Assembly: GCF_021531055.1 (NCBI RefSeq)
Contig: NZ_JADYTL010000004.1
Location: 62,001-126,000 of the forward strand
From: Collinsella tanakaei
GTDB taxonomy: Bacteria > Actinomycetota > Coriobacteriia > Coriobacteriales > Coriobacteriaceae
Direction: 5' to 3'
Length of the DNA: 64,000 bases
The notes below the pieces were generated by a model. It was not told the DNA's origin. It worked only from the letters and a program-made list of their open reading frames with translations, and did not search any database. The position numbers and the translations under genes were made by a program. Of the stretch, positions 41,160-61,705 are shown piece by piece (position 1 is the first letter of the stretch; the number at the start of each line of letters is the position of its first letter).

Positions 41160-41199
41160 CTCGTATCACCTCGGTTAAGACAGAAAGGGAGGGAGCTAC

Positions 41200-42120: not shown

Positions 42121-42129
42121 GAGGCGACT

Positions 42130-43023: not shown

Positions 43024-43035
43024 TCGGAGGTCCTC

Positions 43036-44025: not shown

Positions 44026-44028
44026 GCG

Positions 44029-45018
44029 ATGGCTGCTACCGCAACTGAGCCCCTGCTGTCCGTCAGGAACCTGAGCAAGCGCTTCCCCGTGGGCAAGACG
44101 TTTTTCGGTAAGCCCAAGAAGTGGGTCCACGCCGTCAACAACGTCAGCTTCGACATCATGCCCGGCGAGACCTTCTCGCTCGTAGGCGAGTCGGGCTGCG
44201 GCAAGTCCACCACGAGCCGCCTGATCGACCGTCTGATCACGCCCGATTCCGGCGAGATCATCTTCGAGGGCAAGGACATCGCGAAGATCTCCACCAAGGA
44301 GATGCGCCCGCTGCGCTCCGAGATGCAGATGGTCTTCCAGGATCCGTACGGCTCGCTGAACCCGCGCATGAGGGTTCAGGACATCATCGCCGAGCCCCTG
44401 CTGGTCCACACGAACATGAGCCCCGGCGAGCGCCTGAAGCGCGTGCACGAGCTGCTCGAGGTCGTCGGCCTGCCCGCGACCCACGGCGAGCGCTATCCGC
44501 ACGAGTTCTCCGGCGGCCAGCGCCAGCGCATCGGCATCGCGCGCGCCCTGTCGGTCAACCCCAAGCTCATCATGGCCGACGAGCCCGTCTCGGCGCTCGA
44601 CGTGTCCATTCAGGCCCAGGTCCTCAACCTCCTGCGCGACGTGCAGGAGCGCTACAACCTGACCTACCTGTTCATCTCGCACGACCTCGCCGTCGTCGAG
44701 ATGATCTCGGACCGCATCGGCGTCATGTACCTCGGCACCATGATGGAAGTCGCGCCCAACGAGGAGCTGTACTCCAATCCGCAGCATCCCTACACGCAGG
44801 CGCTGCTGTCCGCCGTGCCCATTCCCGATCCCACGATCGAGAAGAAGCACGTCCTCATCGAGGGCGACCTGCCGAGCCCCACGAACATCCCGAGCGGCTG
44901 TCCGTTCCACACCCGTTGCCCGCATGCGACGGAGAAGTGCTCCGCCGAGGTTCCTCCCGCCAAGGAGGTCAAGCCCGGCCACTTCGTGAACTGTCACTAT
45001 CCGGGACGCGAGCTGTAA
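44029..45018 (+). CDS. oppF: Oligopeptide ABC transporter ATPase
   Basis: A 329-residue ABC ATPase, partner of OppD. Walker A is GESGCGKST, the signature [15 protein letters not shown], and Walker [13 protein letters not shown]. The C-terminal oligopeptide domain again has a four-Cys pattern ([14 protein letters not shown]). It is the last gene of the operon, ending 26 bases before a strong terminator. Confidence 0.94.
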
Positions 45019-45043
45019 GACGGTTCCATAGCCTTGGCGCTTT

Positions 45044-45079
45044 GCGGGCGCACGCCGATACCGGCGTGCGCCCGTTTTT
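45044..45079 (+). terminator. opp operon terminator
   Basis: CGGGCGCACGCC and GGCGTGCGCCCG pair around GATACC and are followed by TTTTT (45075-45079). Confidence 0.93.
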
Positions 45080-45195
45080 CGTATGCGGGCGCGGTGCGCC
45101 CTTGTTTTGCGGTGCGCGAAGGCGCATAGTGCATATGCCGCACGGTGCGCGAACCGCCGCGGCTGCGACGATCTATCGGATGAAAGGAACCCGCT

Positions 45196-46497
45196 ATGAC
45201 GCAACGGACACTCGAGCCTCGGCAGCTGGCTGTTGTCGGAGTGACGCTGTTCTCGATGTTCTTCGGAGCGGGCAACCTCATCCTGCCGCCGCTTCTGGGC
45301 CTGCAGGCCGGAACGTCGGCGGTGCCGGCGACGGTCGGCTTTCTGATCGCGGGCATCGGACTGCCGGTGCTGGGCATCATCGCCGTGGCGCTCGCGGGCA
45401 CCGTGCGCGAGCTTGCCGGGCGCGTGCATCCGCTGTTCGCCCGCGTGTTCGTGGCCGCGGTGTATCTGGCCATCGGTCCTTGCCTGGCGATTCCCCGTAC
45501 GTCGTCCACGGCCTTCGAGATGCTGGCACCGCTGCTGCCTGCAGACGTCTCGCTGGATACCGTGCGTCTGGTGTTCTCGGTCGCGTTCTTCGCGGTCGCG
45601 TATCTGCTCGCCATGCATCCCGGACGCTTGACCCGTCTGCTGGGCCGGGTGACCGGACCGGCGCTCATCGCCTTGATCGTGGTCGTCACGGGTGCGGCGC
45701 TCGTCTCACCGGGTGTGCAGGCGGCCGCTCCGCAGGCGCCCTACGACCATGCTTCGGCGATCCAGGGCTTCTTGACGGGGTACCAGACGATGGATCTGCT
45801 GGCATCCCTCACCTTCGGCATCGTCATCGCGACGAATATCCGCGAGATGGGCGTCACGGAGCCGGGTCCGCTCGCGCGTGCCATCTCGAGCGCCGGCGTG
45901 ATCGCGGGCGTGCTCATGGTGCTCATCTACTGCGGCTTGGCCTACGTCGGTGTCAACGCGACCGAGGTGGCCGCCGGCGCGACCAACGGGGCGACGGTGC
46001 TCACGGCGTCGGCGACGGCGCATTTCGGGGCGGTCGGCACCGTGGTCGTCGCCGCGATCTTCCTGCTCGCGTGCCTGAACGTGTGCATCGGCCTCATCAG
46101 CTGCTGCGGTACGTATTTCTCGCAGGAGATCTCCGCCGTGCCGTATCGCTGGTGCGCGTTGGCCTTCGCCGCGTTCTCGTGCGTGATCTCCAACTTCGGG
46201 CTCGACGCCATCCTGGCCTTCTCGGTGCCGCTGCTCGGTGCGCTGTATCCCATCGCGATCGTGCTCGTGATCATGGGCATGCTGCATGGTGTCTGCGACC
46301 GTGCGCCCCAAGTGTGGCCATGGGTCGTGGGCGTCACCGCCATCGTGAGCGTCGTCATCGCGCTGCGTGACGCATTCGCGCCGGGTGCTTGGATCGCGAC
46401 GGATGCGCTGCCGCTGGCAGATATGGGGCTCGCGTGGGTCGCGCCGGCGCTCGTGGCGGTCGCGATCGGCTACGTACACGCCAAACTGGCACGGTGA
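45196..46497 (+). CDS. brnQ: Branched-chain amino acid transporter, LIVCS family
   Basis: A 433-residue cation-coupled importer of leucine, isoleucine and valine, with about 12 helices. The N-terminal LFSMFFGAGNLILPPLLG is the BrnQ signature; IPRTSSTAFEM and GFLTGYQTMDLLASLTFG also match the family. The start follows AAAGGA by 8 bases. It stands alone downstream of the peptide transporter, so amino-acid import is concentrated here. Confidence 0.94.
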   Translation: MTQRTLEPRQLAVVGVTLFSMFFGAGNLILPPLLGLQAGTSAVPATVGFLIAGIGLPVLGIIAVALAGTVRELAGRVHPLFARVFVAAVYLAIGPCLAIPRTSSTAFEMLAPLLPADVSLDTVRLVFSVAFFAVAYLLAMHPGRLTRLLGRVTGPALIALIVVVTGAALVSPGVQAAAPQAPYDHASAIQGFLTGYQTMDLLASLTFGIVIATNIREMGVTEPGPLARAISSAGVIAGVLMVLIYCGLAYVGVNATEVAAGATNGATVLTASATAHFGAVGTVVVAAIFLLACLNVCIGLISCCGTYFSQEISAVPYRWCALAFAAFSCVISNFGLDAILAFSVPLLGALYPIAIVLVIMGMLHGVCDRAPQVWPWVVGVTAIVSVVIALRDAFAPGAWIATDALPLADMGLAWVAPALVAVAIGYVHAKLAR

Positions 46498-46663: not shown

Positions 46664-46833
46664 CTGGGTGCGTCGATGTCCCAAAATGGCAGCTTTTCGC
46701 AGGAAAAACCCATCATCTTGGTATGAGATGCGCAATAGTTCTGTCGCCTTCGCCGAACGCGGGTTCGCGTCGCCGCCGAGGGGATAATAGTCTCGAAGCG
46801 GGGGTCGCGAAAGCGGTGCGCGAGGAGGCTTCC

Positions 46834-48795
46834 ATGATCGAGGATTATCGCAAGGCGAGGAAAGCGGGTCTGCGACAGGTCCAGCGCGACGTGTCGGCGG
46901 GACGCTATCCCTATCCGGTCGCGTTGAGTGACATCCTCAAAGACCGCGGCTATCAAGGGGAGGTCCCCTTGGGAGTCATGGAAATCGACCTCTCCCTGAT
47001 CGTCGGCACACGCACGCACGGACGGCAGAACTCGTTTTCCGGCGACTTCATGCCGCTGCTCGAGGAGGACTCCGAGTTCGCCGCCAAATGGAGCGCCCTG
47101 ATCGACTCCCAACGTGACGTCGGTCTGCACGAGCCGATCATCGTCTACGAGTACCTGCAGCGTTTCTACGTCCAAGAGGGCAACAAACGCGTCTCGGTCT
47201 CGCGCTATATTGACGCGCCGACCATCACGGCCAACGTCACACGCGTGCTGCCCATGCCCTCCGACGACAAGGAGTCGCGCATCTACCAGGAGTTCATGCG
47301 CTTCTACCGCGTCGCGCCCATCTACGGTATCGACTTCTCGGAAGAGGGGTCCTTCGAACGGCTCGCCGTGTTCGCCGGGCACGACCTCGATACGCCGTGG
47401 CCCGAAGACGACGTCAAGACCCTGCGCTCGGCGTTCGGTGGCTTCGCGGCGTCGTTTGCCCAGCGCGGCGGAGATGCGCTCAACATGACCGCCGGCGACG
47501 CCTTCCTCGTCTACCTCAAGCTCTACGGCTACGAGCTCGCCGTCTGCGCCTCTCCCGTCGAGATCGCGGACCGCTTGGGGCGCATTTGGGGAGAGCTGCA
47601 GGTCAAGACGAGCGAGGATCCGATCGCGTATCTGGAGCAGCCCTCCGCGCCCGAGCGCGGGACGATCCTGTCGGACCTCAAGGGCCTGTACAAGAAGACG
47701 AGGCCCCTCAAGCCGATCGATATCGCGTTCATCTACGAGCGGAACCCGGAGACCTCCGGTTGGGCCGTCGCGCATGAGCAGGGGCGGCGGGAGCTCGAAT
47801 GCAGCCTGGGCGGCGTGGTCAACACGTCGGCATACTACGATTGCGCAGGTGACGCCGCCTTCGACGAGGCGGTCGACGCCGCAGTGCGCGCGGGGAACAC
47901 CCTCATCGTGACCAACGTGCCCACCCAGATGTCCCAAGCGTTGCGCGCAGCGGTCAGGTACCCCCAGCTCAAGGTGCTCAACTGCTCGGTCAGCCTGTCG
48001 CATTCGGCCGTGCGTACCTTTGCCACGAAGACCTACGAGGTCAAGTTCCTGCTCGGCGTGCTGGCGGCGAGCCTGTCGGACAACCATCGCGTGGGATACG
48101 TGGCGGATTCCCCGGTGTACGGCACGGTGGCGGGCATCAACGCCTTCGCCGTGGGCGTCCAGACGGTCGACCCGCATGCGACGGTGTACCTCAAGTGGTA
48201 CTCCGCCAAGGACTACGACTGGCGCCGCGAGCTGTCCGAGACCGATGTGCGCATCGTCTGCGCGCGCGACGTGCCCAACCCGCGGCGCGCGGACGAGGCA
48301 TGGGGCCTCTATATGGTCGAGCACGACGGCACGCGTACCCGCTTGGCAGAGCCCGTCTGGCGCTGGGGTCGCTTCTATGAACGGATCGTCCAGTCCATCC
48401 GCGACGACTCGTGGCGCCGCGAGGGCGACGAGCTGCGCAACAAGGCGCTCAACTACTGGTGGGGTCTGTCGTCGGGCGTCATGGACGTGCGCGTGTCGGA
48501 TGTGGTGCCAGCGCGTCAGCGCAATCTGGTCGAGGTGTTCAAGCAGAGCATGCTCGCCGGCCAGACCCATCCGTTCTCCGACGAGTTGGTGAGCCAGAGC
48601 GGCCTGGTCCAGCCCCAAGGGGCGCCGCGCCTGTCGAGCAACGACATCGCCCGCATGGCGTGGCTCAACCAGAACGTCGTCGGCCGCCTGCCGGAGGAGC
48701 GCGAGCTGTCCGAGCGCGCCTTGGACGAGGTCTCGGTCAGCGGCGTGATCCCCATCGATCCGCTGGTCGCCGCGCAGCGCGAGGCTAAGCGATGA
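46834..48795 (+). CDS. ParB-like domain fused to a cytoplasmic BMP-type binding domain
   Basis: A 653-residue protein without signal peptide. Residues about 95-140 look like a ParB/sulfiredoxin-type domain (IIVYEYLQRFYVQEGNKRVS, resembling the ParB 'G-x-R-R' core). The middle (150-290) is helical and unrecognised. Residues about 294-520 resemble BMP/Med-type periplasmic binding proteins for purine nucleosides (IDIAFIYERNPETSGWAVAH, GVLAASLSDNHRVGYVADSP, GTVAGINAFAVGVQ). Without a signal it cannot serve an ABC importer outside the cell, so it is more likely an intracellular ligand sensor. The start follows GAGGAGG by 6 bases. It overlaps the phosphoesterase gene by 4 bases. Confidence 0.78.
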   Translation: MIEDYRKARKAGLRQVQRDVSAGRYPYPVALSDILKDRGYQGEVPLGVMEIDLSLIVGTRTHGRQNSFSGDFMPLLEEDSEFAAKWSALIDSQRDVGLHEPIIVYEYLQRFYVQEGNKRVSVSRYIDAPTITANVTRVLPMPSDDKESRIYQEFMRFYRVAPIYGIDFSEEGSFERLAVFAGHDLDTPWPEDDVKTLRSAFGGFAASFAQRGGDALNMTAGDAFLVYLKLYGYELAVCASPVEIADRLGRIWGELQVKTSEDPIAYLEQPSAPERGTILSDLKGLYKKTRPLKPIDIAFIYERNPETSGWAVAHEQGRRELECSLGGVVNTSAYYDCAGDAAFDEAVDAAVRAGNTLIVTNVPTQMSQALRAAVRYPQLKVLNCSVSLSHSAVRTFATKTYEVKFLLGVLAASLSDNHRVGYVADSPVYGTVAGINAFAVGVQTVDPHATVYLKWYSAKDYDWRRELSETDVRIVCARDVPNPRRADEAWGLYMVEHDGTRTRLAEPVWRWGRFYERIVQSIRDDSWRREGDELRNKALNYWWGLSSGVMDVRVSDVVPARQRNLVEVFKQSMLAGQTHPFSDELVSQSGLVQPQGAPRLSSNDIARMAWLNQNVVGRLPEERELSERALDEVSVSGVIPIDPLVAAQREAKR

Positions 48796-49433
48796 GGATA
48801 CTCGTCATCTCGGACGTCGAGGAGTCGTGGCTGACGGACCATTACGATCGCGAGCGCATGGAGGGCGTCGAGCTCATCGTGTCGTGCGGCGATCTGCCGG
48901 CGCGCTACCTGGAGCATATCGAGACGCTCGCCAACGTGCCGCTGCTGTACGTGTGGGGCAACCACGACATGTCGTATGCGCGGCACGCGCCACAAGGGTG
49001 CATCTCGATCGAGGGGCAGCTGTGCGACTTCCACGGGATCCGCATCCTCGGCGTCGGCGGATCCATGAAGTACAACGACCGGATCTTCGGGTTCACCGAA
49101 AAGCAGATGCGCTCGCGCGTGGGCAAGCTCGCCTTGCTCGCCCGTGCGACGGGCGGGGTGGACCTCATGGTCACCCACGCGCCGGTGCGCGGGTACGGCG
49201 ATATGGACGACCTGCCGCATCAGGGTTTCGAGTGCTTCGATTACTACGTGGACAAGCTCAAGCCGGCCTACCTCGTGCACGGACACGTGCACATGAACTA
49301 CGGGCGCGTGGCGCGCACGATCGAGCACCCGTGCGGCACGAAGGTGGTCAACGCGTTCGGCGGGCATATCATCGAGTATCCCGACGAGCTGATCCGCGAG
49401 CGCGAGCCGTTTTTGGTGCCGACGGTGGGGTAG
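48792..49433 (+). CDS. Metallophosphoesterase (calcineurin-like)
   Basis: A 213-residue cytoplasmic phosphoesterase. The metal-binding blocks are SDVE with Asp8 (the usual His of DxH is Glu10), SCGDLP with Asp34, GNHD (56-59), THAP and GHVH near the C-terminus. The DxE substitution in the first block may change metal choice. The substrate is unknown (cyclic nucleotides, nucleotides or phosphoproteins are possible). Its ATG overlaps the stop of the ParB/BMP fusion gene (ATGA), so translation is probably coupled and the two proteins may work together. Confidence 0.9.
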   Translation: MRILVISDVEESWLTDHYDRERMEGVELIVSCGDLPARYLEHIETLANVPLLYVWGNHDMSYARHAPQGCISIEGQLCDFHGIRILGVGGSMKYNDRIFGFTEKQMRSRVGKLALLARATGGVDLMVTHAPVRGYGDMDDLPHQGFECFDYYVDKLKPAYLVHGHVHMNYGRVARTIEHPCGTKVVNAFGGHIIEYPDELIREREPFLVPTVG

Positions 49434-49523: not shown

Positions 49524-50309
49524 TTACGCCTCGATGAGCTGAACCTGCTGCTCGAGTTCCTCGCGCTTATCCGCGTCGATCTGACCGCTGCAGATGATCG
49601 CGGTGAGGTCGATCAGGCGGTAGAACGCGTAGAAGTCGCGGCGACCGATCTTGCTCGCGTCGGTGATCGCATAGCGGCGGTGTGCCTTGTCGAATACGAG
49701 CCGCTGAAGGCGCCCCTCGTCGATATCGGCGTTGAACAGCGAGTCGCCGACGATGCCGTTCGTGCCGATGAACGCCTTGTCGATGCCGAGCGGCGCGACG
49801 GCGTCCTCGGCCATGACGCCGACGAAGCAACCGGTCTGGCGGCGATACAGGCCGCCCACGAGGTAGAGCTCGACGGCGGTGGCATGCTCGAGCTTGCGGA
49901 AGATGGACAGCGAGTTGGTGACGATACGGACGGGGATATCCGGCAGGTAGTCGACCATCTGCTCGGCCGTGGTGCCGGCGCCGAGGAAGACCGTGTCGTG
50001 CGCCTCGATGAGTGATGCGGCGCGACGCGCGACGCGCGCCTTCTCCTCGGTGTGCAGATGGCGCTTCTCGGTGTGGCTGTACTCACGCGGCACGGGGATG
50101 CCGTCGGCGGAGAAGGTGTCCCTAAGGTTGCGGGGCAGGCGCGCGCCGCCGTAGACCCGCTCGACCATGTTGCGGTCGGCGAGCTCCTCCAGATCGCGCC
50201 GGATGGTCATCTCGGACACGCCGAGCGCGCGAGCGGTGTCGCTCACCGACTCGGTCCCCTCGCGGGCGAGCCGGCGTAAGATCTGTTCCTGGCGTTGGGC
50301 TTTGAGCAT
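49524..50309 (-). CDS. DeoR-family sugar regulator
   Basis: A 261-residue repressor. The N-terminal winged helix (SVSDTARALGVSEMTIRRDLEEL) is the DeoR signature. The C-terminal sugar-phosphate-sensing domain has the isomerase-like GAGTTAEQM, IVTNSL and GLYRRQTG blocks. Such regulators usually release DNA when a sugar phosphate binds. It is divergent from galK over a 429-base gap and probably controls galKT, itself, or both. The start at 50309 follows GAGGTGG; the ATG at 50348 has no site. Confidence 0.92.
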   Translation of the reverse strand: MLKAQRQEQILRRLAREGTESVSDTARALGVSEMTIRRDLEELADRNMVERVYGGARLPRNLRDTFSADGIPVPREYSHTEKRHLHTEEKARVARRAASLIEAHDTVFLGAGTTAEQMVDYLPDIPVRIVTNSLSIFRKLEHATAVELYLVGGLYRRQTGCFVGVMAEDAVAPLGIDKAFIGTNGIVGDSLFNADIDEGRLQRLVFDKAHRRYAITDASKIGRRDFYAFYRLIDLTAIICSGQIDADKREELEQQVQLIEA

Positions 50310-50738
50310 CTGGTACCACCTCTCACGTATTTCAACATAAACGAACAAACTTGGTCAACATCGAGGTGGACGGTCGGTCTTGGCGGGTGAGCGGTCGACG
50401 TTCACGGAGCCGCCACGTTCGATCAGGCGCGCCGGGTCCAAATGTTCGAGTCCGGGTTGTCACATTGGGGTCAATAGTAAGAAACAAGCTGGTAAATATG
50501 GGTATCAATGAGTGATGCCCAGCACTGTGCACATCGATGGATCCGACGGCCGAATTGGTCGCATTCCGTTCGGGTCGGGCGGTATCCCGTGTGCTACAGT
50601 CAGAACCAGAGATAACAAACCCTTACACAATCGCACAGTGAAGGTGAGGGCGTCGCGCGGATGAGGGCATGTGCTCCGCGCGATGGTGACATCCGCGGGA
50701 CGCCCGGTGCGTCCCGCCCGATAGAGGGGAGACACGCC
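50310..50738. promoter_or_regulatory. Divergent control region between the DeoR gene and galK
   Basis: No gene is seen. TCAACAT occurs at 50332 and 50355 near the regulator's start. Short AACAA(A/G)C strings recur at 50344, 50483 and 50615 and could be DeoR-type sites. TACAGT (50595-50600) is a possible galK -10. The long leader of galK (about 135 bases) has no riboswitch that I recognise. Confidence 0.4.
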
Positions 50739-51923
50739 ATGAGTTCGCCAGATCCCACCTTGATCGACCGCTTCGTCGAGCAGTTCGGCGGCAATCGGGC
50801 GCTTGCCCACGTGCACGCGCCGGCACGCAGCGAGATCGCCGGCAACCACACCGACCACGAGGGCGGCCATGTCGTGGCGGGCGCCCTGGACGTCGCCATC
50901 GAGGGCATCGCGGCGCTCAACGGCACGATGGTCGCGCGCGTGGCGAGCGAGGGCTACGAGCCGTTCGAGATCGACCTTTCCGATGTGTCCGCCCGTCCCG
51001 AGGAGCAGGTGAGCACTTCCGGGCTCGTGCGCGGCATGGCCGCGGAGCTGGCCGCCACCGGGCGCGAGGTCAAGGGCTTCGACCTCGTCATGACGAGCGA
51101 CATCCCCGGCGGCAGCGGCCTGTCGTCCTCGGCGGCGCTCGAGCTCGCCGTCGGCCGCGTGATGGAGACCCTGTGGCCCGGCGACCCCGTGACCCCGACC
51201 GCGATGGCCCAGGCCGCCCAGCGCGCCGAGAACGTCTACTTCGGTAAGCCCTGCGGCCTTATGGACCAGCTGTCCGAGGCCCTCGGCGGCATCGCCCACA
51301 TCGATTTCAAGGATCCGGCGCATCCGGTGTCCGAGAAGCTCGACTTCGACTTCGCCGACAAGGGTTACGCGCTGTGCCTGGCCTACATGGGCACCGATCA
51401 CAGCGTGAGCACGGCCGACTACGCCGCCGTGCCCGGCGAGATGCAGGCGGTGGCGGCCGAGTTCGGCCAGACGCGCCTGTGCGACGTGCCGGCCGAGGCG
51501 TTCGACGAGCGCGTGGTCGATCTGCGCGCCAAGCTCGGCGACCGCCCGGTGCTGCGCGCCCTGCACTACTACATCGAGAACCAGCTCGTCATCGAGCGCT
51601 GGGACGCCCTGTGCGCCGGCGATATCGACACCTTCCTCGACCTCACGCGCCGTTCGGGCGCAAGCTCGGGCATGTACCTGCAAAACGTCGCCAACGGCGG
51701 CAACGATCAGCCCGCCATGGTGGCGCTCGCGCTCGCCGAGCACGTGCTGGGCGACAACGGTGCCGTCCGCATCCACGGCGGCGGCTTCGGCGGCTCGATC
51801 CAGGCGTTCGTGCCGCTCGACATGGTCGACCACTTCGTCAAGAGCATGGATGCATGGCTCGGCGAGGGCAACTGCCGCACCTACCGCATCGCATCCGAGG
51901 GGGCGTATGCGGCATGGCTGTAA
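50739..51923 (+). CDS. galK: Galactokinase
   Basis: A 394-residue GHMP-family kinase that makes galactose-1-phosphate. The galactokinase signature is altered but recognisable (PARSEIAGNHTDHEGGH instead of the common PGRVNLIGEHTDY). The ATP motif is GGSGLSSSAALE, and the C-terminal GHMP glycine loop is IHGGGFGGSIQAF. The start follows GAGGGGAG. It overlaps galT by 10 bases, so the two are cotranscribed and probably translationally coupled. Confidence 0.95.
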   Translation: MSSPDPTLIDRFVEQFGGNRALAHVHAPARSEIAGNHTDHEGGHVVAGALDVAIEGIAALNGTMVARVASEGYEPFEIDLSDVSARPEEQVSTSGLVRGMAAELAATGREVKGFDLVMTSDIPGGSGLSSSAALELAVGRVMETLWPGDPVTPTAMAQAAQRAENVYFGKPCGLMDQLSEALGGIAHIDFKDPAHPVSEKLDFDFADKGYALCLAYMGTDHSVSTADYAAVPGEMQAVAAEFGQTRLCDVPAEAFDERVVDLRAKLGDRPVLRALHYYIENQLVIERWDALCAGDIDTFLDLTRRSGASSGMYLQNVANGGNDQPAMVALALAEHVLGDNGAVRIHGGGFGGSIQAFVPLDMVDHFVKSMDAWLGEGNCRTYRIASEGAYAAWL

Positions 51924-53581
51924 CGTCGACCTACGGGCCGCGTGAGCTCGCGGCCGATATCGAGGCGCTCGTGACCTACGCCGTCCGCTGCGGCCTCGTG
52001 CTGCCCGGCGATGCCGTCTGGGCCTACAACACCGTGCTCGAGGCCGTGGGCGCCGTCGGTCCCACCGCGCCGAACGCCTCGGTGCTGCTCGATGCCGCCT
52101 ACGCGGTGGCTCCGACGTCGCATCTGGACGCGGACGCGCCGATGGCCGTCGCCGCCGTCGACGAGACCTTCGACCTCGAGGGGACGGTTGAGCGGATCGC
52201 CGCGGCCGGCGTGGCAAACGGGCAGGAGGAGGACACGCCGTCGGGTGCCGATCGCATCGCCACGCGCGTGATGAACATCCTGATGCCGCGCCCCTCCGAG
52301 GTCGAGCGCCGCTTTGCCACGCTGTACCGCGCCTACGGTCCGGTCGCCGCGACCGACTGGTTCTACAAGATGAGCTGCGACAGCCGCTACGTGCGCAAGG
52401 CCGCCATCGCGAGGAACATCGCGTGGACCTCGGCGACCGAGTGGGGCGAGCTCGAGATCACCATCAACCTGTCCAAGCCCGAAAAAGATCCCAAGGCGAT
52501 CGCGGCGGCGGGCGCCGCCAAGGATACAGGCGACGTCTACCCGGCCTGTCAGCTGTGCATGGAAAACGAGGGGTATCCCGGCCGCGGCGCGGGAGCCGCC
52601 CACGGCGCGCATCCCGCCCGTCAGAACCTGCGCATCCTGCCGATCACCCTCGGCGGTGAGCACTGGGGTCTGCAGTACAGCCCGTATGCGTACTTCGACG
52701 AGCACTGCATCGCCATGAGTGCGGAGCACCGCCTCATGCACGTCGACCGCGAGAACATGGGGCGCCTGCTCGACTTCGTGGAGCTGTTCGGCCATTACTT
52801 CGTCGGCAGCAACGCCGACCTGCCGATCGTCGGCGGCTCGATCCTATCGCACGACCACTTCCAGGGCGGTCGCCACGTGTTCCCCATGATGAAGGCGCCC
52901 GCGGAGTCGACGTTTGCGATGGACGGGTTCGACGCCGTCTCGTGCGAGGTCGTGCGCTGGCCCATGTCCGTGCTGCGCCTGACGAGCGCCGACCGCGAGC
53001 AGCTGCTCGACGCCGCCGCGCACGTGCTCGACGTGTGGCGCGGCTACTCCGACGCCGCCGCCGGCGTGGTCGCCGAGACGGTCGAGGACGGGCAGACGGT
53101 GCGTCATAACACCATCACGCCCGTCGCCTGCAAGACCGACGCGGGCTACGTGCTCTATCTTGCCCTGCGCTGCAACATCACGACCGACGAGCACCCGCTC
53201 GGCGTGTTCCACCCGCATGCGCAGTGGCATCACATCAAGAAGGAGAACATCGGGCTTATCGAGGTCATGGGCTTGGCGATCCTGCCGCCGCGTCTGGTCG
53301 ACGAGCTGGGCGCCGTGCGCGAGCATCTGCTGGCCCATGCGGGCGAGACCGACCATGCGACGCTTGCCGCCGAGCTTGAGGCCGACCCGCTGATGGCGTC
53401 GCACGCCGCCTGGGCTCTGGAGCTCGCCTGCGCCCATCCCGACATCACCGCCGACACCGCCGAGCAGATCATCCGCGACGGTGTGAGCGACGTCTTCGGG
53501 CATGTGCTCGCCGACGCCGGCGTGTTCAAGTGGGACGAGGCCGGCCGTGCCGCGATGGTGCGCTTCATCGACGCCCTGTAG
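51914..53581 (+). CDS. galT: UDP-glucose--hexose-1-phosphate uridylyltransferase, family 2
   Basis: A 555-residue GalT of the second family, common in Gram-positive bacteria. The active-site region reads SILSHDHFQGGRH, with a further PHAQWHHIKKENIGLIEVMG block. It transfers UMP from UDP-glucose to galactose-1-phosphate, giving glucose-1-phosphate and UDP-galactose. At 555 residues it is longer than most (about 490-510), partly through an Ala-rich insert (AAGAAKDTGDVYPACQLC). No galE is in the window. The ATG at 51914 lies inside the end of galK, and no better start exists downstream. Confidence 0.95.
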   Translation: MAVTSTYGPRELAADIEALVTYAVRCGLVLPGDAVWAYNTVLEAVGAVGPTAPNASVLLDAAYAVAPTSHLDADAPMAVAAVDETFDLEGTVERIAAAGVANGQEEDTPSGADRIATRVMNILMPRPSEVERRFATLYRAYGPVAATDWFYKMSCDSRYVRKAAIARNIAWTSATEWGELEITINLSKPEKDPKAIAAAGAAKDTGDVYPACQLCMENEGYPGRGAGAAHGAHPARQNLRILPITLGGEHWGLQYSPYAYFDEHCIAMSAEHRLMHVDRENMGRLLDFVELFGHYFVGSNADLPIVGGSILSHDHFQGGRHVFPMMKAPAESTFAMDGFDAVSCEVVRWPMSVLRLTSADREQLLDAAAHVLDVWRGYSDAAAGVVAETVEDGQTVRHNTITPVACKTDAGYVLYLALRCNITTDEHPLGVFHPHAQWHHIKKENIGLIEVMGLAILPPRLVDELGAVREHLLAHAGETDHATLAAELEADPLMASHAAWALELACAHPDITADTAEQIIRDGVSDVFGHVLADAGVFKWDEAGRAAMVRFIDAL

Positions 53582-53926: not shown

Positions 53927-56122
53927 CTACCCGTCCACGCGCTCGAAGTGATAGCTGCGCGCCATGTAGAGCGCCGAGCCGACGGGCAGGGGGAGCCCCA
54001 TGTCCATGAGCGCGTCGGCGGCGTAGACGGTGTCGGAGTTGACCTCGCGGTACCGTGCGCCCGGCACAAGGCCGCGCGGGACGACGTACTTGGCCTCGCC
54101 GTAGCCCTCGGCGCGCGCGACCACGACGTTCACGACGGCCTCGGAGCCGTCCTCGGCGACGAATTCCCATGCGTACAGATCGTCGGTCGCGGGGTTCGTC
54201 AGGCGGTAGTACAGGCCCTCGCGCACGATGCGCTCCATGTCGCGGAAACGCTCGATCTGCCCACGGATGAGCTCGCAGGCGCGCTCGGGTAGCTCAAGCA
54301 GATCGAGCTCGTAACCGAAGCCGCCACCCGCCATGGCGATGAGGCCGCGCGCGGACAGCGACACGGTGCGGCCGTTGACCTCGTTGGGGCAGGCCGAGAC
54401 GTGCGCGCCCACGGTGGAGCAGGGGTAGCCGAACGACGTGCCGTACTGGATGGTCATACGGTCGTGGCCGTCGGTGTTGTCGCTCGTCCAGATCTGCGGC
54501 GTGTAGTGCATCATGCCGGCGTCGAAGCGCCCGCCGCCTGCGGCGCAGCCCTCGATGAGCAGGTGCGGGTAGCGCTGCACGAGCCGCTCGAGCACGTCGT
54601 ACAGGCCCAGGTAGTAGTCGTAGGTCACGCGGCCCTGGTCGGCGGTCGCGTGCGAGTAGATGTCGACGAGGCTGCGGTTGAAGTCCCACTTGAGGTACTC
54701 GATGTTGCCCTGGTCGAGCACATGGCACAGCTGCTCGAACACGTTGTCGCGCACCTCGGCGCGGGAGAAGTCGAGCACGAGCTGATCGCGGCCGAGCGCG
54801 GGCTGCTTGCCCGGGACGGCGAGCGCCCAGTCGGGATGCTCGCGGAAGAGCCGCGAGTTCTCGTTGACCATCTCCGGCTCCACCCAGATGCCGAACTTGA
54901 CGCCCAGGGCGTTGACGCGCTCGATGAGCTGGCCGAGCGTGCCGCCGAGCTTTTCCTCGTTGACGGTCCAGTCGCCGAGCGAGCGGTAGTCGTCATCGCG
55001 CTCGCCGAACCAGCCGTCATCCATGACGAGCATGTCCATGCCCAGGTCGGCGGCCTTGGCGGCAAGGCGGACGAGCTCGTCGCCGGTGAAGGTGAAGTAG
55101 TGCGCCTCCCAGCTGTTGACCAGGATCGGACGCGGGCGGTCGCGCCAGTCGCCGCGGCACACGTGCGTGCGGATGCAGCGATGCAGGTTGTGCGAGATAC
55201 GCTCGAGGCCGTGCGCGGAGTAGGTCATGATGACCTCGGGGGCTACGATCTGCCCACCCGCCTCGAGCGGGTAGGAGAACAGCTCGTCGGACAGGCCCAT
55301 CTGCATGCGGATCTGCTGGTACTGGGTCTGCTCGACCTCAGCCTTGAAGTTGCCGCTGTAGACGAATGACATCGACCAGGCGCGGCCCGCCGTCTCGGTG
55401 GCGTCGTGGTCGCACACGATCATGAACGGGTTGTACTGATGCGAGGACTGGCCGCGGCGGCTGCCGACGCTGAACGAGCCGGGGCGCACCTCGTGGCGGT
55501 CGGGCTTGCGCTCCATGCAGTGCTGGCCGTTGAAGGTGATGACGTCGAAGTCGCCGTGGACGAAGTCGAGGCAGGCGGTCTGCAGCTTCTCGACGACCAC
55601 GAGACGGGCGCCGACGTTGCGCACGATCGCGGCGCGCGTGATGACATCGAGCTCGGGAAGCACGCCGAACAGCAGCTCGACCTCGACGCCGCAGCGCGTA
55701 TCGGCGAGCGTGACGGAGAGCGTCTGCGCACCGTCGGCCACGGCATCGGCGTAGGCGGCGGGCAGGCCCGGCAGGTCGTACTTACCCTCGCGGACCTCGT
55801 GGTGCACGTAGCGCAGATCGCAGCCGAAGGTGCCGTCGCCGTCGCGCATGACGAACACGGGGCTGCGCAGGTCGCCGTTGCCCTGGAAGGGGAACTCCTG
55901 CGGCAGGACGTCGAGCGAGTAGGTGCGCGTCTTGGCCTCGTGGGGGCTCGTGCAGCATCCGCTGCGGTCCGCATAGGTGAGCAGGTACCCCATATCGCCC
56001 TCGGAGCGGGTACCGTAATACAGATGCAGCAGGTAGCCGAACCGGTCCGCCTGCATCTGGTAGGTCGTGTTCCGCGTGTGCAACGTGAAGGTACGGGTCG
56101 CCTCGTCGATGAGAATGGGCAT
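53927..56122 (-). CDS. GH36 alpha-galactosidase
   Basis: A 731-residue glycoside hydrolase of family 36 (clan D), which releases galactose from raffinose, stachyose or melibiose. The nucleophile is Asp480 (YLKWDFNRS) and the acid/base Asp548 (TSDNTD). MDDGWFGERDDD (368-379) and GIWVEPEMVN (411-420) line the active site. The N-terminal 330 residues form the beta-sandwich. There is no signal peptide, so it acts on imported sugar. It is the last gene downstream of the ABC transporter, 174 bases after the permease stop, with hairpins in the gap. The start at 56122 fits the family; its purine-rich AAGGAG lies rather far upstream. Confidence 0.95.
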   Translation of the reverse strand: MPILIDEATRTFTLHTRNTTYQMQADRFGYLLHLYYGTRSEGDMGYLLTYADRSGCCTSPHEAKTRTYSLDVLPQEFPFQGNGDLRSPVFVMRDGDGTFGCDLRYVHHEVREGKYDLPGLPAAYADAVADGAQTLSVTLADTRCGVEVELLFGVLPELDVITRAAIVRNVGARLVVVEKLQTACLDFVHGDFDVITFNGQHCMERKPDRHEVRPGSFSVGSRRGQSSHQYNPFMIVCDHDATETAGRAWSMSFVYSGNFKAEVEQTQYQQIRMQMGLSDELFSYPLEAGGQIVAPEVIMTYSAHGLERISHNLHRCIRTHVCRGDWRDRPRPILVNSWEAHYFTFTGDELVRLAAKAADLGMDMLVMDDGWFGERDDDYRSLGDWTVNEEKLGGTLGQLIERVNALGVKFGIWVEPEMVNENSRLFREHPDWALAVPGKQPALGRDQLVLDFSRAEVRDNVFEQLCHVLDQGNIEYLKWDFNRSLVDIYSHATADQGRVTYDYYLGLYDVLERLVQRYPHLLIEGCAAGGGRFDAGMMHYTPQIWTSDNTDGHDRMTIQYGTSFGYPCSTVGAHVSACPNEVNGRTVSLSARGLIAMAGGGFGYELDLLELPERACELIRGQIERFRDMERIVREGLYYRLTNPATDDLYAWEFVAEDGSEAVVNVVVARAEGYGEAKYVVPRGLVPGARYREVNSDTVYAADALMDMGLPLPVGSALYMARSYHFERVDG

Positions 56123-56162
56123 CGTCTTCGCTCGATTTCTCCTTGTAGGAACAGGTGGGATT

Positions 56163-56232
56163 CGCGTGCACGAAGCGTGCACGCGGCTGGTATTTTACGG
56201 CACTTGGGCCCCGATTCCGGGGCCCAAGTGCC
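56163..56232. other. Two perfect hairpins between permease and alpha-galactosidase genes
   Basis: CGCGTGCACG/CGTGCACGCG around AAG (56163-56185) and GGCACTTGGGCCCC/GGGGCCCAAGTGCC around GATTCC (56199-56232). Neither has a T-run in the operon's direction. They may trim or stabilise the polycistronic mRNA, or hold a separate promoter/operator for the enzyme gene. Confidence 0.65.
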
Positions 56233-56296: not shown

Positions 56297-57142
56297 CTAC
56301 TTGACCGCGCCGTTGGTGACACCGCCGATGATCTGCTTCTGCGCGATGATGTAGAAGATGATCATCGGGAGCATGGCGAGCAGGTAGGAGGCGAACGCCA
56401 GGTTGTAGTTCGTGGAGAACGCGGTCTGGAAGTTCATCTGCGCGAGCGGCAGGGTGTTGACGCCCTGGCCGCCCATGATGACGAGCGGGGTCATGACGTC
56501 GTTCCACACGGCCAGACCGGTGATGACGGCGACGGTGGCGTGCATGGGCTTCATGAGCGGGAAGATGACCTTCCAGTAGGTGCTCCAGGTGGAGGCGCCG
56601 TCCATGCGCGCGGCCTCCTCGAGCGCGATGGGGATGTTACGCAGGTAGCCGGTGTAGAGCATCATGTTCATGGGCATGTAGAACACGATGTAGAGGAGCA
56701 TGACGCCGACCATGTTGTCGAGGTGCATCACGGCGGTCTGCTTGACGAGCGGCATCATCAGGATCGCGAAGGGCACGTACATGCCGGCGATGATGAAGTA
56801 GTAGGACGCCTTGTAGACACGGCTGTGATCCATGTTGCGGCCGATCGCGTAGGCGGCGAGGCTGTGGATCAGGATGGACGCCACGACGGCCACGACGGTG
56901 ATGATCAGCGAGTTCAAGAACGAATGGAAGAAATCGGTGACCTGGATGGCCTGAATGAAGTTGTCGAGGCTCCACGTGCTCGGCAGCGACAGGATGCCGG
57001 CGATGTCGTTCGTCATCTCGGAGGGATCCTTGAAGGCGATGACGACCGCCATGTAGAGCGGGAAGATGATAGTGATGAGGCCGATGATGAGCAGGATGGT
57101 GACAGGCCAGTTGACCCGCTCTTTCACTTTGTCTTTAGCCAT
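56297..57142 (-). CDS. Sugar ABC transporter permease (MalG/MsmG type)
   Basis: A 281-residue carbohydrate permease of the CUT1 family with six helices. The EAA loop reads EEAARMDGASTWSTYWKVIFP. Its start overlaps the preceding permease stop by 1 base (shared A of TAATG type), so translation is coupled. The operon with GH36 suggests raffinose-type alpha-galactosides as substrate. Confidence 0.94.
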   Translation of the reverse strand: MAKDKVKERVNWPVTILLIIGLITIIFPLYMAVVIAFKDPSEMTNDIAGILSLPSTWSLDNFIQAIQVTDFFHSFLNSLIITVVAVVASILIHSLAAYAIGRNMDHSRVYKASYYFIIAGMYVPFAILMMPLVKQTAVMHLDNMVGVMLLYIVFYMPMNMMLYTGYLRNIPIALEEAARMDGASTWSTYWKVIFPLMKPMHATVAVITGLAVWNDVMTPLVIMGGQGVNTLPLAQMNFQTAFSTNYNLAFASYLLAMLPMIIFYIIAQKQIIGGVTNGAVK

Positions 57143-58005
57143 TAGAGCTGCTCCTCCTTACTGTTCAAGAACTTGGTCTGCAGGATGGAGACGACGGCGA
57201 TGAGGATGAAGAAGATCACCGCGTTGGCGCACTGGTAGCCGAACTGGCCGCCGGACAGACCGTTGTTGTAGATGAGGTAGGAGATGGACTCGGTGGACTG
57301 CGCCGGACCGCCGGAGGTCATCGAGACGATCTGGTCGAAGACCATCAGCATGTCCTTCATGACGAGCACCATGTTGGTGGTGACGCTCGGCATGATGAGC
57401 GGGAACGTGATGTAGCGGAACTTGTCCCAGCCGGTGGCGCCATCGAGCGCGCCGGCCTCGTAGACGTCCTCGGGAACCGACGACAGGCCGGTGATGTAGA
57501 TGATCGTGGTCTGCGCGCAGGCTTGCCACACGACGACGATCACGATGGCCACCCATGCCCATTCGGTGCTGGCGAGGATGGACTCGCCGCCGGTGATGGC
57601 GGGCACGATGTAGGTGAAGAAGTAGCTGAACACGTAGCCGACGACCAGGGCGCCCAGGATGCGGGGCACGAAGTAGATGCCGCGCAGCGCGCTCTTGAAC
57701 TTGATCTTGCTCGACAGGCCGATGGCCAGCATGAGCGAGATGACGTTCGTGCCGAGCGTGGCGACGATGGCCACCTTGAACGTGAACAGGTAGGAGTTCA
57801 GGATACGGGTATCGCTGAACATGTCGATGTAGTTCTGGATGCCGACGATGTTAAAGCTGCCGTAGCCCTTGGAGTCGGTGAAGCTGTACAAAAAGCCCGT
57901 GATGAGCGGGAACGTATTGAATGCGCAGAAAAGCACTAGGACCGGGATCAAAATCGCCATGAAGGTCTTCCTGCGGTTCGACCCGATTGCGGCCGTACTT
58001 GCCAT
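57142..58005 (-). CDS. Sugar ABC transporter permease (MalF/MsmF type)
   Basis: A 287-residue CUT1 permease, partner of the one above. Helices begin at about 15-35 (FMAILIPVLVLFCAFNTFPL). The EAA loop reads YEAGALDGATGWDKFRYITFP. It lies 12 bases after the binding-protein stop, behind AAGGAGG. Confidence 0.94.
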   Translation of the reverse strand: MASTAAIGSNRRKTFMAILIPVLVLFCAFNTFPLITGFLYSFTDSKGYGSFNIVGIQNYIDMFSDTRILNSYLFTFKVAIVATLGTNVISLMLAIGLSSKIKFKSALRGIYFVPRILGALVVGYVFSYFFTYIVPAITGGESILASTEWAWVAIVIVVVWQACAQTTIIYITGLSSVPEDVYEAGALDGATGWDKFRYITFPLIMPSVTTNMVLVMKDMLMVFDQIVSMTSGGPAQSTESISYLIYNNGLSGGQFGYQCANAVIFFILIAVVSILQTKFLNSKEEQL

Positions 58006-58017
58006 AGCGCGTCCTCC

Positions 58018-59301
58018 TTACTGCTGGCTCTCGTATTCCTGTACCTTGCGGATGACGTTGCGGTTGTAGCGCTGCCAATCGGTGTCCCACTTCTCCAAGA
58101 ACGCATCGATGTCGCCGTTGAGCAGCATCGTCTGCAGCTGGGCGTCGCAGGCCATGGAGGACTGGTAGGAGTGGTCGAGGTAGTCGAGGACCTGACCCTC
58201 GTCCAAAAACGTCTTGATGTCGTCGAACAGCGGGTCGAGCTCGTAGTCGCCCTCGGAGCAGGGCAGCGCACGCTGGTCGTCGATGTAGGTCTGCACGTTT
58301 TCCTGCTGGTTCAGGAAGGAGATGACCTCGTAGACGGCGTCTTTGTGATCGCAGGTCGCGGCCACGCACCACTGCAGGTCGACGCCGGAGACCACGATTC
58401 GGTCGTCGGGGTTGTCGGCTGAGGGCATGGCGAACATGCCGATGTTCATGTCGGGGTTCACCGACAGGATTTGGGGCACGGCGAACGAGCCGCAGGGGTA
58501 CATGGCCGCCTGGCCGCGCGCGAAGGCCGTGCAGGCGTCGTTGTAGCTGTAGGCGAACGGGCCCTCCTCGGCGTAGTCGAGCAGCTGCAGCATGCGCTCG
58601 GCAGGCTTGCGGTAGAAGTCGGCGAACTTGGCCTCACCGGCGTTCACCTGACGGCAGTGGTCGGCGGGCACCATATTGATGGTGATGGAGTTCCACGGCG
58701 ACAGGATGGTCCAGGTGTCGAGGTATCCCAGATAGATGGGCAGGACCTCGCCCTCGGCCTTGATCTCGTCGAAGAGGTCGATCATCTCGTCCCAGGTCTC
58801 GGGGATGGTCCAACCCTTTTCCTCGAACATGTCCTTGTTGTAGAGCATGCCGGCGGCGTTGGCCACATACGGCACGCCGTAGATGCCGTCCATGGGGATG
58901 TAGGTCACGCTCTTCAGGATGTCCTTGTAGGCGTCCTGGACCTTATCCATGCCCTCGTAGTCGGTGACGTCGGCGAGGATGTTCGAGTCCACGAAGCTGG
59001 CGTAGTCGGCGTCGCCACCGATGCCGATGACGTCGGGGTAGTTCTCGCGGACGAAACGCGTCTTCATGATGGTCACGGCGTCCGCGGGGCTCGTGATGTT
59101 GAGGTAGATGTCGTCATGCGTGGCGTTGAACTCCTCCATGAGGTGCTCGAAGATGCTCACGGCCTCCTGCTTGTAGCTGACGATCTCCACCTCGATCTTG
59201 CCGTCTGAACGCTCCGAGGTGCAGCCGGCGAACAGCAGCGATGCCGCTCCTGCAGCGCCGAGCCCCAGAAGCGAGCGGCGTGAAATAGGCTTGTTCAGCA
59301 T
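58018..59301 (-). CDS. Sugar-binding lipoprotein
   Basis: A 427-residue CUT1 extracellular binding protein (SBP_bac_1 family). The signal has twin arginines (ISRRSLLGLG, 6-15) and a lipobox ending at Cys27 (LFAGC), so Tat export and lipid anchoring are likely. YKQEAVSIFEHLMEEFNATH and MLYNKDMFEEKGWTIPETWDE are family-typical. It probably captures raffinose-type sugars for the two permeases downstream. The start follows AAGGAAGG by 8 bases. Confidence 0.93.
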   Translation of the reverse strand: MLNKPISRRSLLGLGAAGAASLLFAGCTSERSDGKIEVEIVSYKQEAVSIFEHLMEEFNATHDDIYLNITSPADAVTIMKTRFVRENYPDVIGIGGDADYASFVDSNILADVTDYEGMDKVQDAYKDILKSVTYIPMDGIYGVPYVANAAGMLYNKDMFEEKGWTIPETWDEMIDLFDEIKAEGEVLPIYLGYLDTWTILSPWNSITINMVPADHCRQVNAGEAKFADFYRKPAERMLQLLDYAEEGPFAYSYNDACTAFARGQAAMYPCGSFAVPQILSVNPDMNIGMFAMPSADNPDDRIVVSGVDLQWCVAATCDHKDAVYEVISFLNQQENVQTYIDDQRALPCSEGDYELDPLFDDIKTFLDEGQVLDYLDHSYQSSMACDAQLQTMLLNGDIDAFLEKWDTDWQRYNRNVIRKVQEYESQQ

Positions 59302-59322
59302 ATCGGGTGCCTTCCTTTGCGA

Positions 59323-60438
59323 CTAGTGAACGATGGCGAGTTCGGACTGCTTGTCGAAGGCATGGATCTTGTCCAGATCGAACGCGACCTTGATGCGGGA
59401 GCCGACGCGGGCGGGGTTGGTGGACGAGACGTGGCTGGAGATGGCGCCGCCGTCGACGTCGGCGTAGATCATGGCCTCGGAGCCCAGCAGCTCGTAGACG
59501 GTGACCGTGGCATCGATGGCCTCGGAGAGGTTGCGGTCTGCGGGGTGCTCGTTGGAGTCCACGACGTCCTCCGGGCGGATGCCCATGGTGACAGCCTTGC
59601 CCACGTAGCCCTTGTCCTTCAGAACCTTGCCCTTGGCCTCGGGCAGGGTGATGGTGTTCGAGCCGAAGCTCAAGGTAACCTTGCCGGCAGTCTCGCCCAC
59701 GCTGGCGTCGATGAAGTTCATCTGCGGGGAGCCGATGAAGCCTGCCACGAACAGGTTGCAGGGCTCGGAGTAGAGCTTGGTCGGGGTGTCGACCTGCTGC
59801 ATGACGCCGTCCTTCATGACGACGATGCGGGTGCCGAGCGTCATGGCCTCGGTCTGGTCGTGCGTGACGTAGATGATGGTGGCGCCCAGACGATCATGGA
59901 GCTTGGAGATCTCGGCGCGCATCTGGACGCGGAGCTTGGCGTCGAGGTTGGACAGCGGCTCGTCCATGAGGTAGACCTTCGGGGCGCGGCAGATGGCGCG
60001 GCCCATGGCGACGCGCTGACGCTGGCCGCCGGAGAGCGCGGAAGGCTTGCGGTCGAGCAGCTTCTCGAGGTCGAGGATGCGCGCTGCCTCGCGGACCGCC
60101 TTATCGATCTCGTCGGGGCTTGCCTTGCGCAGCTTCATCGGGAAGGCCATGTTGTCATAGACGGTCATGTGCGGGTAGAGCGCGTAGTTCTGGAACACCA
60201 TCGCGATGTCGCGGTCCTTGGGCTCCACGTCGTTGACCACGCGGCCGTCGATCTTGAGGGTGCCCGAGGTGATGTCCTCCAGGCCCGCGATCATGCGCAG
60301 GGTCGTGGACTTGCCGCAGCCCGAGGGGCCGACGAAGATGATGAACTCCTTGTCGGCGATCTCGAGGTTGAAGTCCTTGACGCCCTCATAACCGTTCGGG
60401 TACTTCTTCCCCACGTGTTCAAGAGAGAGTTCTGCCAT
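59323..60438 (-). CDS. msmK: Sugar ABC transporter ATPase (MsmK/UgpC type)
   Basis: A 371-residue ATPase of CUT1 importers. Walker A is GPSGCGKST (37-45), the signature LSGGQRQRVAMGRAI, and Walker B VYLMDEPLSNLD. The C-terminal OB-fold regulatory domain (about 240-371) is present. MsmK proteins often energise several importers; here it is the first gene of the operon, only 21 bases ahead of the binding protein, so it is at least dedicated to this one. The start follows GGAAGGGG. Confidence 0.95.
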   Translation of the reverse strand: MAELSLEHVGKKYPNGYEGVKDFNLEIADKEFIIFVGPSGCGKSTTLRMIAGLEDITSGTLKIDGRVVNDVEPKDRDIAMVFQNYALYPHMTVYDNMAFPMKLRKASPDEIDKAVREAARILDLEKLLDRKPSALSGGQRQRVAMGRAICRAPKVYLMDEPLSNLDAKLRVQMRAEISKLHDRLGATIIYVTHDQTEAMTLGTRIVVMKDGVMQQVDTPTKLYSEPCNLFVAGFIGSPQMNFIDASVGETAGKVTLSFGSNTITLPEAKGKVLKDKGYVGKAVTMGIRPEDVVDSNEHPADRNLSEAIDATVTVYELLGSEAMIYADVDGGAISSHVSSTNPARVGSRIKVAFDLDKIHAFDKQSELAIVH

Positions 60439-60850: not shown

Positions 60851-61705
60851 ATGCCAGCGCACGAAATCGTCTCCTCGACGTTTTCCAGGGGTAAGTACAT
60901 CGACTTGATGCCGTATCAGTACGGACGCGAGGTGTGCACGCCCGGCCATGCGTTCGGGCCGTTCCGCAGGAGCCACTACCTGTTCCATTACATCATCTCG
61001 GGATCGGGCACGCTCGTGGCGACCGACGAGACGGGCAAGCAGAGCACCTACCGCCTGAGCGCTGGGGAGGGTTTCATGATCTTCCCCGGCCAGACGAACA
61101 CGTATTACGCCGATATGGACGACCCATGGGAATATATCTGGGTGGAGTTCGACGGCATCCGCGTCAAGGAGTCGCTGTCGCTCGTGGGTCTTTCCGAATC
61201 GTCGCCGGTGTATCAGACCGAGAAAGCCGAGATGCGCGCCGCGATGGAGCAGGAGATGCGCTATCTGGTCGACCATCAGGAGGCGTCGGCCTTCCAGCTC
61301 ATCGGGCATACGTACCTCTTTTTAGACTATCTGTTGCGCTCGGTGCTCACGCAGAAGGCCGCGACGACCAACAAGCTGCAGGACCTCTACATCCGCGAGG
61401 CCATGACCTACATCGAGCAGAACTACCAAAACGGGATCACCGTGGAGGACGTCGCGCGCCAGACCGGCCTCAACCGCAGCTATTTCGGCAAGATCTTCAA
61501 GAGCGCGACCGATAAGTCGCCGCAACAGTACCTCATCGACTACCGCATGACCAAGGCCGCCCAGTTGCTCAAGCTCACGGCGCTGTCGGTCGGCGAGGTG
61601 GGGCGCGCGGTGGGCTATCCCAACCAGCTGCATTTCTCGCGCGCGTTCAAAAGCTCGTTCGGGCTGTGCCCGCGCGAATGGCGCCGTGTGAACACCTTCA
61701 ACTGA
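60851..61705 (+). CDS. AraC-family regulator (MsmR/RafR-like)
   Basis: A 284-residue regulator. Residues 1-160 form the cupin-type sugar-sensing domain (HYLFHYIISGSGTLVATDE, GEGFMIFPGQTNTYYAD). Residues about 180-284 are the double helix-turn-helix (VEDVARQTGLNRSYFGKIFK, VGEVGRAVGYPNQLHFSRAF). It is divergent from msmK over 412 bases and is the natural activator of the alpha-galactoside operon. The start follows AGGAGGA by 6 bases. Confidence 0.94.
   Translation: MPAHEIVSSTFSRGKYIDLMPYQYGREVCTPGHAFGPFRRSHYLFHYIISGSGTLVATDETGKQSTYRLSAGEGFMIFPGQTNTYYADMDDPWEYIWVEFDGIRVKESLSLVGLSESSPVYQTEKAEMRAAMEQEMRYLVDHQEASAFQLIGHTYLFLDYLLRSVLTQKAATTNKLQDLYIREAMTYIEQNYQNGITVEDVARQTGLNRSYFGKIFKSATDKSPQQYLIDYRMTKAAQLLKLTALSVGEVGRAVGYPNQLHFSRAFKSSFGLCPREWRRVNTFN

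Follow-up and report, generated by a model that had tools for sequence, protein, structure and literature searches.

Recent work has placed proteins of the ParB-CTPase fold in settings remote from chromosome segregation, where most of their roles are unknown, and some of them bind CTP, ATP or GTP; when the arginine of the GxxR motif was mutated, the ParB-fold proteins under test no longer bound nucleoside triphosphate (NTP) (Kaljevic et al. 2025, PMC12704722). Among binding proteins of the BMP/PnrA type, AtzT holds guanine between Tyr45 and Trp194 and contacts it through Ser97, the backbone of Phe98, Glu165, Asn218 and Asn220 (PMC6834077). In a stretch of 64,000 nucleotides from Collinsella tanakaei (contig NZ_JADYTL010000004.1, positions 62,001 to 126,000; hereafter the window), a ParB-like and a BMP domain are joined in one protein, and the open reading frame of this fusion shares four bases, ATGA, with that of a metallophosphoesterase. 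The initial annotation of this DNA had given the coordinates and the overlap of the two genes correctly. The locus is a two-gene unit and not a pair of chance neighbours. We propose, with a probability of about 0.4, that it encodes a cytoplasmic, NTP-dependent and ligand-gated switch which would control the phosphoesterase in glycoside metabolism, a reading drawn from the architecture, the pairing and the neighbourhood.

Conservation of the gene pair had been set beforehand as a test of the unit and was surveyed in 197 genomes of the window's order. The fusion search matched 76 genomes, 66 of which carry the fusion; the other ten, with only a weak match to the BMP part, were excluded. The phosphoesterase was present in the identical set of 66 genomes, and in all 66 the two genes are adjacent on a single contig, the matched stretches lying no more than 252 bases apart. 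In 29 of 30 named loci the phosphoesterase gene directly follows the fusion gene (in L058 the contig ends inside the fusion), with a four-base overlap in 14 and gaps of 3-15 bases in 15. Records from Collinsella aerofaciens and Subdoligranulum also show the four-base overlap. Among the loci found, the closest relatives of the fusion are those of Collinsella tanakaei ET30 (L039) and an uncultured Collinsella (L031), each with 82% protein identity. Four of the 66 genomes match the fusion in two pieces (G084, G173, G179 and G147); in the first three the break lies near residue 141-150, which suggests an insertion between the ParB-like and the middle domains. In addition, G082, G186, G189 and G195, four genomes of a distant group of the same genus, have a single TGA within their match to the fusion. 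Beyond Actinomycetota and Fusobacteriota, the pair was seen in two records only, one labelled Subdoligranulum variabile, the other an unverified 'bacteriophage' scaffold from the gut. Another unverified gut 'bacteriophage' record, MT836066.1, aligns from its first bases onward with residues 363-642 of the fusion (36%) and is probably bacterial DNA; two scans of viral contigs gave no relatives.

A wider form of the pair, lacking the BMP domain, was identified outside the order. In a sample of 396 Actinomycetota genomes, the phosphoesterase profile (E 1e-10) matched 84, including 13 of the window's order. Beyond the order, 72 phosphoesterase places were counted (split pieces once), of which all except that in G342 were scanned with local hidden Markov models. 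Both genes were identified in 66 of these 71 regions, with the phosphoesterase first, the ParB-like gene second and no BMP domain; in three of the 66 (L118, L134 and L139) one open frame lies between them. The other five comprise L117, whose contig stops after the phosphoesterase, L165 and L167, with weaker phosphoesterase matches and no ParB-like gene, L169, with a phosphoesterase fragment of 68 residues, and L170, where the ParB-like gene is present and the phosphoesterase is cut by the contig end. A Tsukamurella plasmid carries, behind a sugar ATP-binding cassette (ABC) importer, a phosphoesterase relative and then a gene with the annotation 'chromosome partitioning protein ParB', and on two Cetobacterium plasmids the phosphoesterase is followed by a ParB-like protein of 562 residues, behind a glucan phosphorylase gene. 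Since the BMP-less pair occurs in the 66 Actinomycetota regions as well as in Tsukamurella and Cetobacterium, the core of the module is the phosphoesterase with the ParB-like protein. The gene order in the Coriobacterial form is reversed relative to that of the BMP-less pairs, and the BMP domain looks as if it was gained in the window's line rather than lost elsewhere.

The C-terminal half of the Cetobacterium ParB-like protein (L085 4965-6653 and L086 3965-5653) has no Pfam match above cut-off in the L085 copy, which was scanned. The proposition that the ParB-like domain is always paired with the phosphoesterase was rejected: at least 94 ParB-like matches lie beyond the order, at least 58 of them with a phosphoesterase within 2.5 kb, and of the 36 unpaired ones among the 94 listed, 26 are in open frames of fewer than 250 residues (all counts being lower bounds). 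ParB-like proteins of 151-166 residues (L088 1194-1661, L092 914-1414 and L093 1888-2343) have the motifs of the BMP-less family and no phosphoesterase match nearby, and such short proteins are taken as a second, unpaired subfamily. Phosphoesterase matches on two Mycobacterium plasmids, in Ruegeria and Jeotgalibacillus and on a second Tsukamurella plasmid were taken as generic phosphoesterases. None of the neighbours in these five records is annotated as ParB-like (most of those in Jeotgalibacillus, and several others, are just 'hypothetical protein'), and two ParB-like searches of the plasmid collection left the Mycobacterium, Ruegeria, Jeotgalibacillus and second Tsukamurella records unmatched. 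NZ_OY725717.1 (L061), a 'plasmid' of 900 kb, carries a ribosomal protein gene, secE, nusG and tuf, and OY725845.1 (L062), a 'plasmid' of 56 kb, a clpC-like gene identified by eye; both are probably chromosome fragments labelled as plasmids.

The N-terminus of the fusion, described as ParB-like in the initial annotation, appears to be homologous to ParB, a relationship detected through the BMP-less relatives. Profile-profile comparison placed the fusion N-terminus with the BMP-less set at 99% (1.8e-18). An alignment of 27 rows (seven fusions and twenty BMP-less relatives; A4) was compared by hhalign with 22 Coriobacterial ParBs and scored 85% (6e-6), the 20 BMP-less rows alone scored 75%, and four control comparisons gave 1.1% or less. 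Searched against the PDB with E up to 10, the A4 profile matched six sequences, five of which belong to the ParB superfamily: the ParB 4umk (E 0.017), SbnI (0.26 and 0.27), Spo0J (0.48) and sulfiredoxin (0.54), all individually weak and all covering the same core region. The sixth was a haemoglobin (E 0.77). G116 and R119 of the GxxR motif are kept in all 27 rows. A canonical ParB of the ParABS type was not recognized, as Pfam scans of the fusion found neither PF02195 nor a helix-turn-helix match, and the single PF02195 match of the genome lies on a different contig from the fusion.

The presence of SbnI, a free-serine kinase of the same fold, among the profile matches raises the alternative that the two proteins are a kinase/phosphatase pair, in which the ParB-like domain would phosphorylate a small molecule as SerK and SbnI do, the phosphoesterase would reverse its action and the BMP domain would supply or sense the substrate. 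All 20 BMP-less relatives carry DG[NH]HR, near the DGVHR of SbnI, and opposite phosphate chemistry of linked proteins would explain the strict pairing. However, all seven fusions carry EGNKR and not DGxHR, the SbnI matches are those of E 0.26 and 0.27 given above, and no catalytic glutamate was identified; we consider such a pair unlikely.

The phosphoesterase scored above cut-off for the Pfam families PF12850 (E 1.5e-11, 44.9 bits) and PF00149 (E 1.3e-8, 35.9 bits). In 82 aligned phosphoesterases the GD, GNH, H and GHxH blocks, and thus most of the metal ligands, are near-invariant, as is a family-specific motif, D137-x2-D140-x2-H143. The DxE first metal block reported initially is present, at D8-V9-E10, but as one variant of a family-wide loss: in 81 of the 82 rows the third position of the DxH block is V (49), E (14), I (9), P (5), A (2) or a gap (2), and histidine in none. 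Because this position varies across the family, the DxE of the window is, as read from the alignment, the local form of the family-wide loss of the DxH histidine, and its glutamate is unlikely to be a required metal ligand.

The C-terminal part of the fusion is a BMP domain by both sequence and fold. PF02608 matches residues 303-456 (E 2.5e-8; 33.7 bits against a curated cut-off of 24.1), and residues 292-620 match AtzT (6pi5) with E 7e-28 as a single sequence and 3e-51 as a profile. AlphaFold2 modelled the BMP and middle domains well, the mean predicted local distance difference test score (pLDDT) in the middle domain being 68-94 in ten-residue blocks from 141 to 260, and Foldseek matched the BMP model to 6pi5 with E 2.8e-21; AtzT and 3s99 are the closest relatives in sequence and in fold. 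A plain hydropathy scan of the fusion found no signal-peptide-like stretch (the peak 19-residue mean in the first 60 residues is 0.87), which supports the earlier description of a cytoplasmic BMP domain fused to a ParB-like part. No other Bmp match at E 0.001 was found in this genome. In G018, of the same genus, an ordinary BMP protein with a lipoprotein signal identified by eye is present besides the fusion (L094 1526-2512, minus strand).

The pocket positions of AtzT were mapped onto 30 fusion rows through one pairwise alignment. The position of Tyr45 is Trp in 30 of 30, so that an aromatic sandwich partner is retained, and that of Ser97 is Ser in 19 of 30. In contrast, the Glu165 position is Gly in all 30, the Trp194 position is Asp or Gly in 27, the Asn220 position is Pro in 24 and the Asn218 position falls in an alignment gap; by this single pairwise alignment the fusions lack a purine pocket like that of AtzT. 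Because the guanine-contact residues are mostly replaced, the ligand is probably not guanine, and the neighbourhood would be consistent with a sugar, a sugar phosphate or a nucleotide sugar. These observations bear on the initial proposal of an intracellular nucleoside or nucleotide sensor with its processing enzyme, that is, nucleoside or cyclic-nucleotide signalling in which the BMP domain would bind a purine nucleoside and the phosphoesterase cleave a nucleotide. The ligands named for solved BMP relatives are guanine, guanosine, uridine or adenosine (6pi5, PMC6834077; titles of 7x0r, 6yab and 6y9u), the phosphoesterase profile matches MPPED2 (1.4e-5) and, weakly, Rv0805 (0.26), and the MPPED orthologue dMpped was reported to hydrolyse cAMP and cGMP (PMC10547211). 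The replaced contacts argue against this proposal, as do the neighbourhood, which consists of galactoside uptake and Leloir-pathway genes and not purine salvage, and the occurrence of the core module elsewhere without BMP. The proposal is not supported, and we regard it as quite improbable.

The genes around the pair are listed in Table 1. Positions 53927 to 61705 of the window form an alpha-galactoside locus adjoining galK-galT. Of the 197 genomes of the order, 33 have the GH36 type found here (E 1e-40 or better), and all 33 carry the fusion; GH36 lies within 20 kb of the fusion in 29, and the remaining four have the two on different contigs. galK was identified within 20 kb of the fusion in 23 of the 64 fusion genomes with a galK match, and 31 of the 66 fusion carriers have either galK or GH36 within this distance. 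The arrangements differ between lineages and include galK-galT after a DeoR gene, GH36 immediately upstream along with a sugar importer, galT with galK upstream, and a convergent galK-galT-GH36. On the minus strand of the window, 37777-45618 is an open frame of 2613 codons, the last ~440 of which match a GH29 alpha-L-fucosidase in Pfam; the rest is antisense to peptide ABC transporter genes and has no Pfam match at 1e-5.

Table 1. Features of the ParB-like/BMP fusion locus and its surroundings, in window positions.
Feature	Position	Strand	Basis
Ribosome-binding site GAGGAGG of fusion gene	46822..46828	+	Five bases before ATG; read from sequence
ParB-like/BMP fusion gene	46834..48795	+	Open reading frame with ribosome-binding site; 653 codons plus TGA at 48793-48795; homologues span both domains
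ParB/sulfiredoxin-like domain, residues 1-140	46834..47253	+	Weak profile matches over the same region; hhalign to true ParBs
GxxR (P motif) G116-N-K-R119, within EGNKR	47179..47190	+	Alignment A4
Helical middle domain, residues 141-275	47254..47658	+	Aligns partly with BMP-less ParB-like proteins (A4); AlphaFold2
BMP (periplasmic-binding-protein type) domain, residues 294-620	47713..48693	+	Pfam, AtzT match, Foldseek
Metallophosphoesterase gene	48792..49433	+	213 residues; first metal block D8-V9-E10; Pfam matches
DeoR-family regulator	49524..50348	-	Pfam DeoRC 6.6e-43
Galactokinase galK	50661..51923	+	Pfam GHMP_kinases_N, GalKase_gal_bdg
Galactose-1-phosphate uridylyltransferase galT (putative start)	51923..53581	+	Pfam GalP_UDP_transf 5.4e-28
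GH36 alpha-galactosidase	53927..56182	-	Pfam Melibiase 1.9e-133
Sugar-type ABC importer: two permeases, solute-binding protein, MalK-type ATPase	56297..60438	-	BPD_transp_1 twice, SBP_bac_1, ABC_tran and OB_MalK
AraC-family regulator	60851..61705	+	Pfam HTH_18, AraC_binding

In the switch that we propose, the ParB-like protein would probably bind a nucleoside triphosphate through the GxxR motif, and the BMP domain would sense a small metabolite formed inside the cell when glycosides, and galactosides in particular, are broken down. The ligand state of the BMP domain would set the NTP-bound state of the ParB domain, which in turn would gate the partner phosphoesterase, presumably through physical contact of the two proteins. 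The phosphoesterase would then dephosphorylate a phosphorylated metabolite and so keep sugar-phosphate or nucleotide-sugar levels in bounds.

Several observations weigh against this switch. In the work of Kaljevic et al. (2025, PMC12704722), NTP binding was not seen for 17 of the 28 ParB-fold proteins that had been purified. The seven fusions alone scored only 22% (9.5e-4) in hhalign against the Coriobacterial ParBs, and Pfam and NCBIfam scans of the fusion N-terminus gave no match and no ParB-type model. In the AlphaFold2 models of the full fusion and of residues 1-275, residues 1-136 are mostly below pLDDT 50, and Foldseek with this low-confidence N-terminal model returned nothing at E below 1; because of these two results, the ParB fold of the domain is predicted from the profile comparisons. 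The phosphoesterase possesses all the blocks of calcineurin-like metallophosphoesterases save the DxH histidine, and its activity is likewise a prediction from sequence. The sugar-marker count, which favours the switch (27 of 30 fusion loci compared to none of 20 hand-placed control windows), used markers partly chosen from the loci themselves, and related genomes are not independent. The BMP-less pairs have sugar markers in 9 of 66 cases compared to 1 of 20 control windows, for which reason the sugar link may be a Coriobacterial matter; a general sugar link of the BMP-less pairs was rejected as unproven, and several of them adjoin other ABC importers or unrelated genes. In 35 of the 66 fusion carriers neither galK nor GH36 lies within 20 kb, a few of these cases resulting from contig breaks. 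The unlinked carriers include a group at 42% identity to the window, to which the Collinsella aerofaciens record seems to belong, and in which the pair lies between a mechanosensitive-channel gene and rplA.

The 35 unlinked carriers also favour an explanation in which the pair has a housekeeping function unlinked to sugars: the phosphoesterase would repair damaged metabolites, the ParB-like protein would be a chaperone or scaffold, and the closeness to sugar genes would be an inherited position, synteny being common to related genomes. Inherited position alone would not predict that several different arrangements join the pair to galK and GH36. This GH36 type was moreover found exclusively in fusion carriers (33 of 33), and we find such a housekeeping role somewhat unlikely.

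The finding made in the initial annotation is thus real and larger than noted there, and its biological setting differs from the one then proposed. Taken beyond the window, the gated switch would tentatively be one case of a widespread module built on the gating of a metallophosphoesterase by an NTP-binding ParB-fold protein; in the gut Coriobacteria, this module may have captured a nutrient-binding domain that reads a sugar-pathway metabolite and so governs galactoside use. With a partner whose chemistry can be recognised, a ligand-binding domain joined to it and, in about half of its carriers, a metabolic setting, the ParB-like protein constitutes a testable system. It would explain proteins annotated as 'ABC transporter substrate-binding protein' or 'chromosome partitioning protein ParB' that are likely neither, and it bears on the handling of alpha-galactosides by gut Collinsella relatives.

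The suggestion that the unit is undescribed agrees with our literature search, in which no description of a ParB-like/BMP fusion paired with a phosphoesterase was found. One of the nearest accounts is the survey of ParB-CTPase-fold fusion proteins (Kaljevic et al. 2025, PMC12704722), whose members share with the present fusion the GxxR P motif and an orphan ParB-like domain fused to another domain. That survey used PF02195 as its query, whereas the present family is unmatched by PF02195; its main text nowhere uses the words phosphoesterase, phosphatase, periplasmic or sugar, and its sections 6, 7 and 8 name no BMP or phosphoesterase partners. AtzT and the BMP/PnrA-type binding proteins (PF02608) align with residues 292-620 and are the top Foldseek matches, but in the fusion this domain lies behind a ParB-like domain, lacks a hydrophobic N-terminus and has lost most of the guanine contacts. 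Med, the ComK activator (2hqb; E 1.5e-10), is another member of the BMP family with, by name, a regulatory and not a transport role; we know of no ParB-like domain or phosphoesterase partner for it. The free-serine kinases SerK and SbnI and sulfiredoxin resemble the ParB-like part in the weak profile matches (SbnI and sulfiredoxin) and in the DG[NH]HR of the BMP-less relatives, while the fusions differ by EGNKR and by their helical middle domain. MPPED1/MPPED2, Rv0805 and YfcE show profile matches to the window's phosphoesterase family, which keeps the GD, GNH, H and GHxH blocks and differs from them by lacking the DxH histidine and by possessing its own D137-x2-D140-x2-H143 motif.

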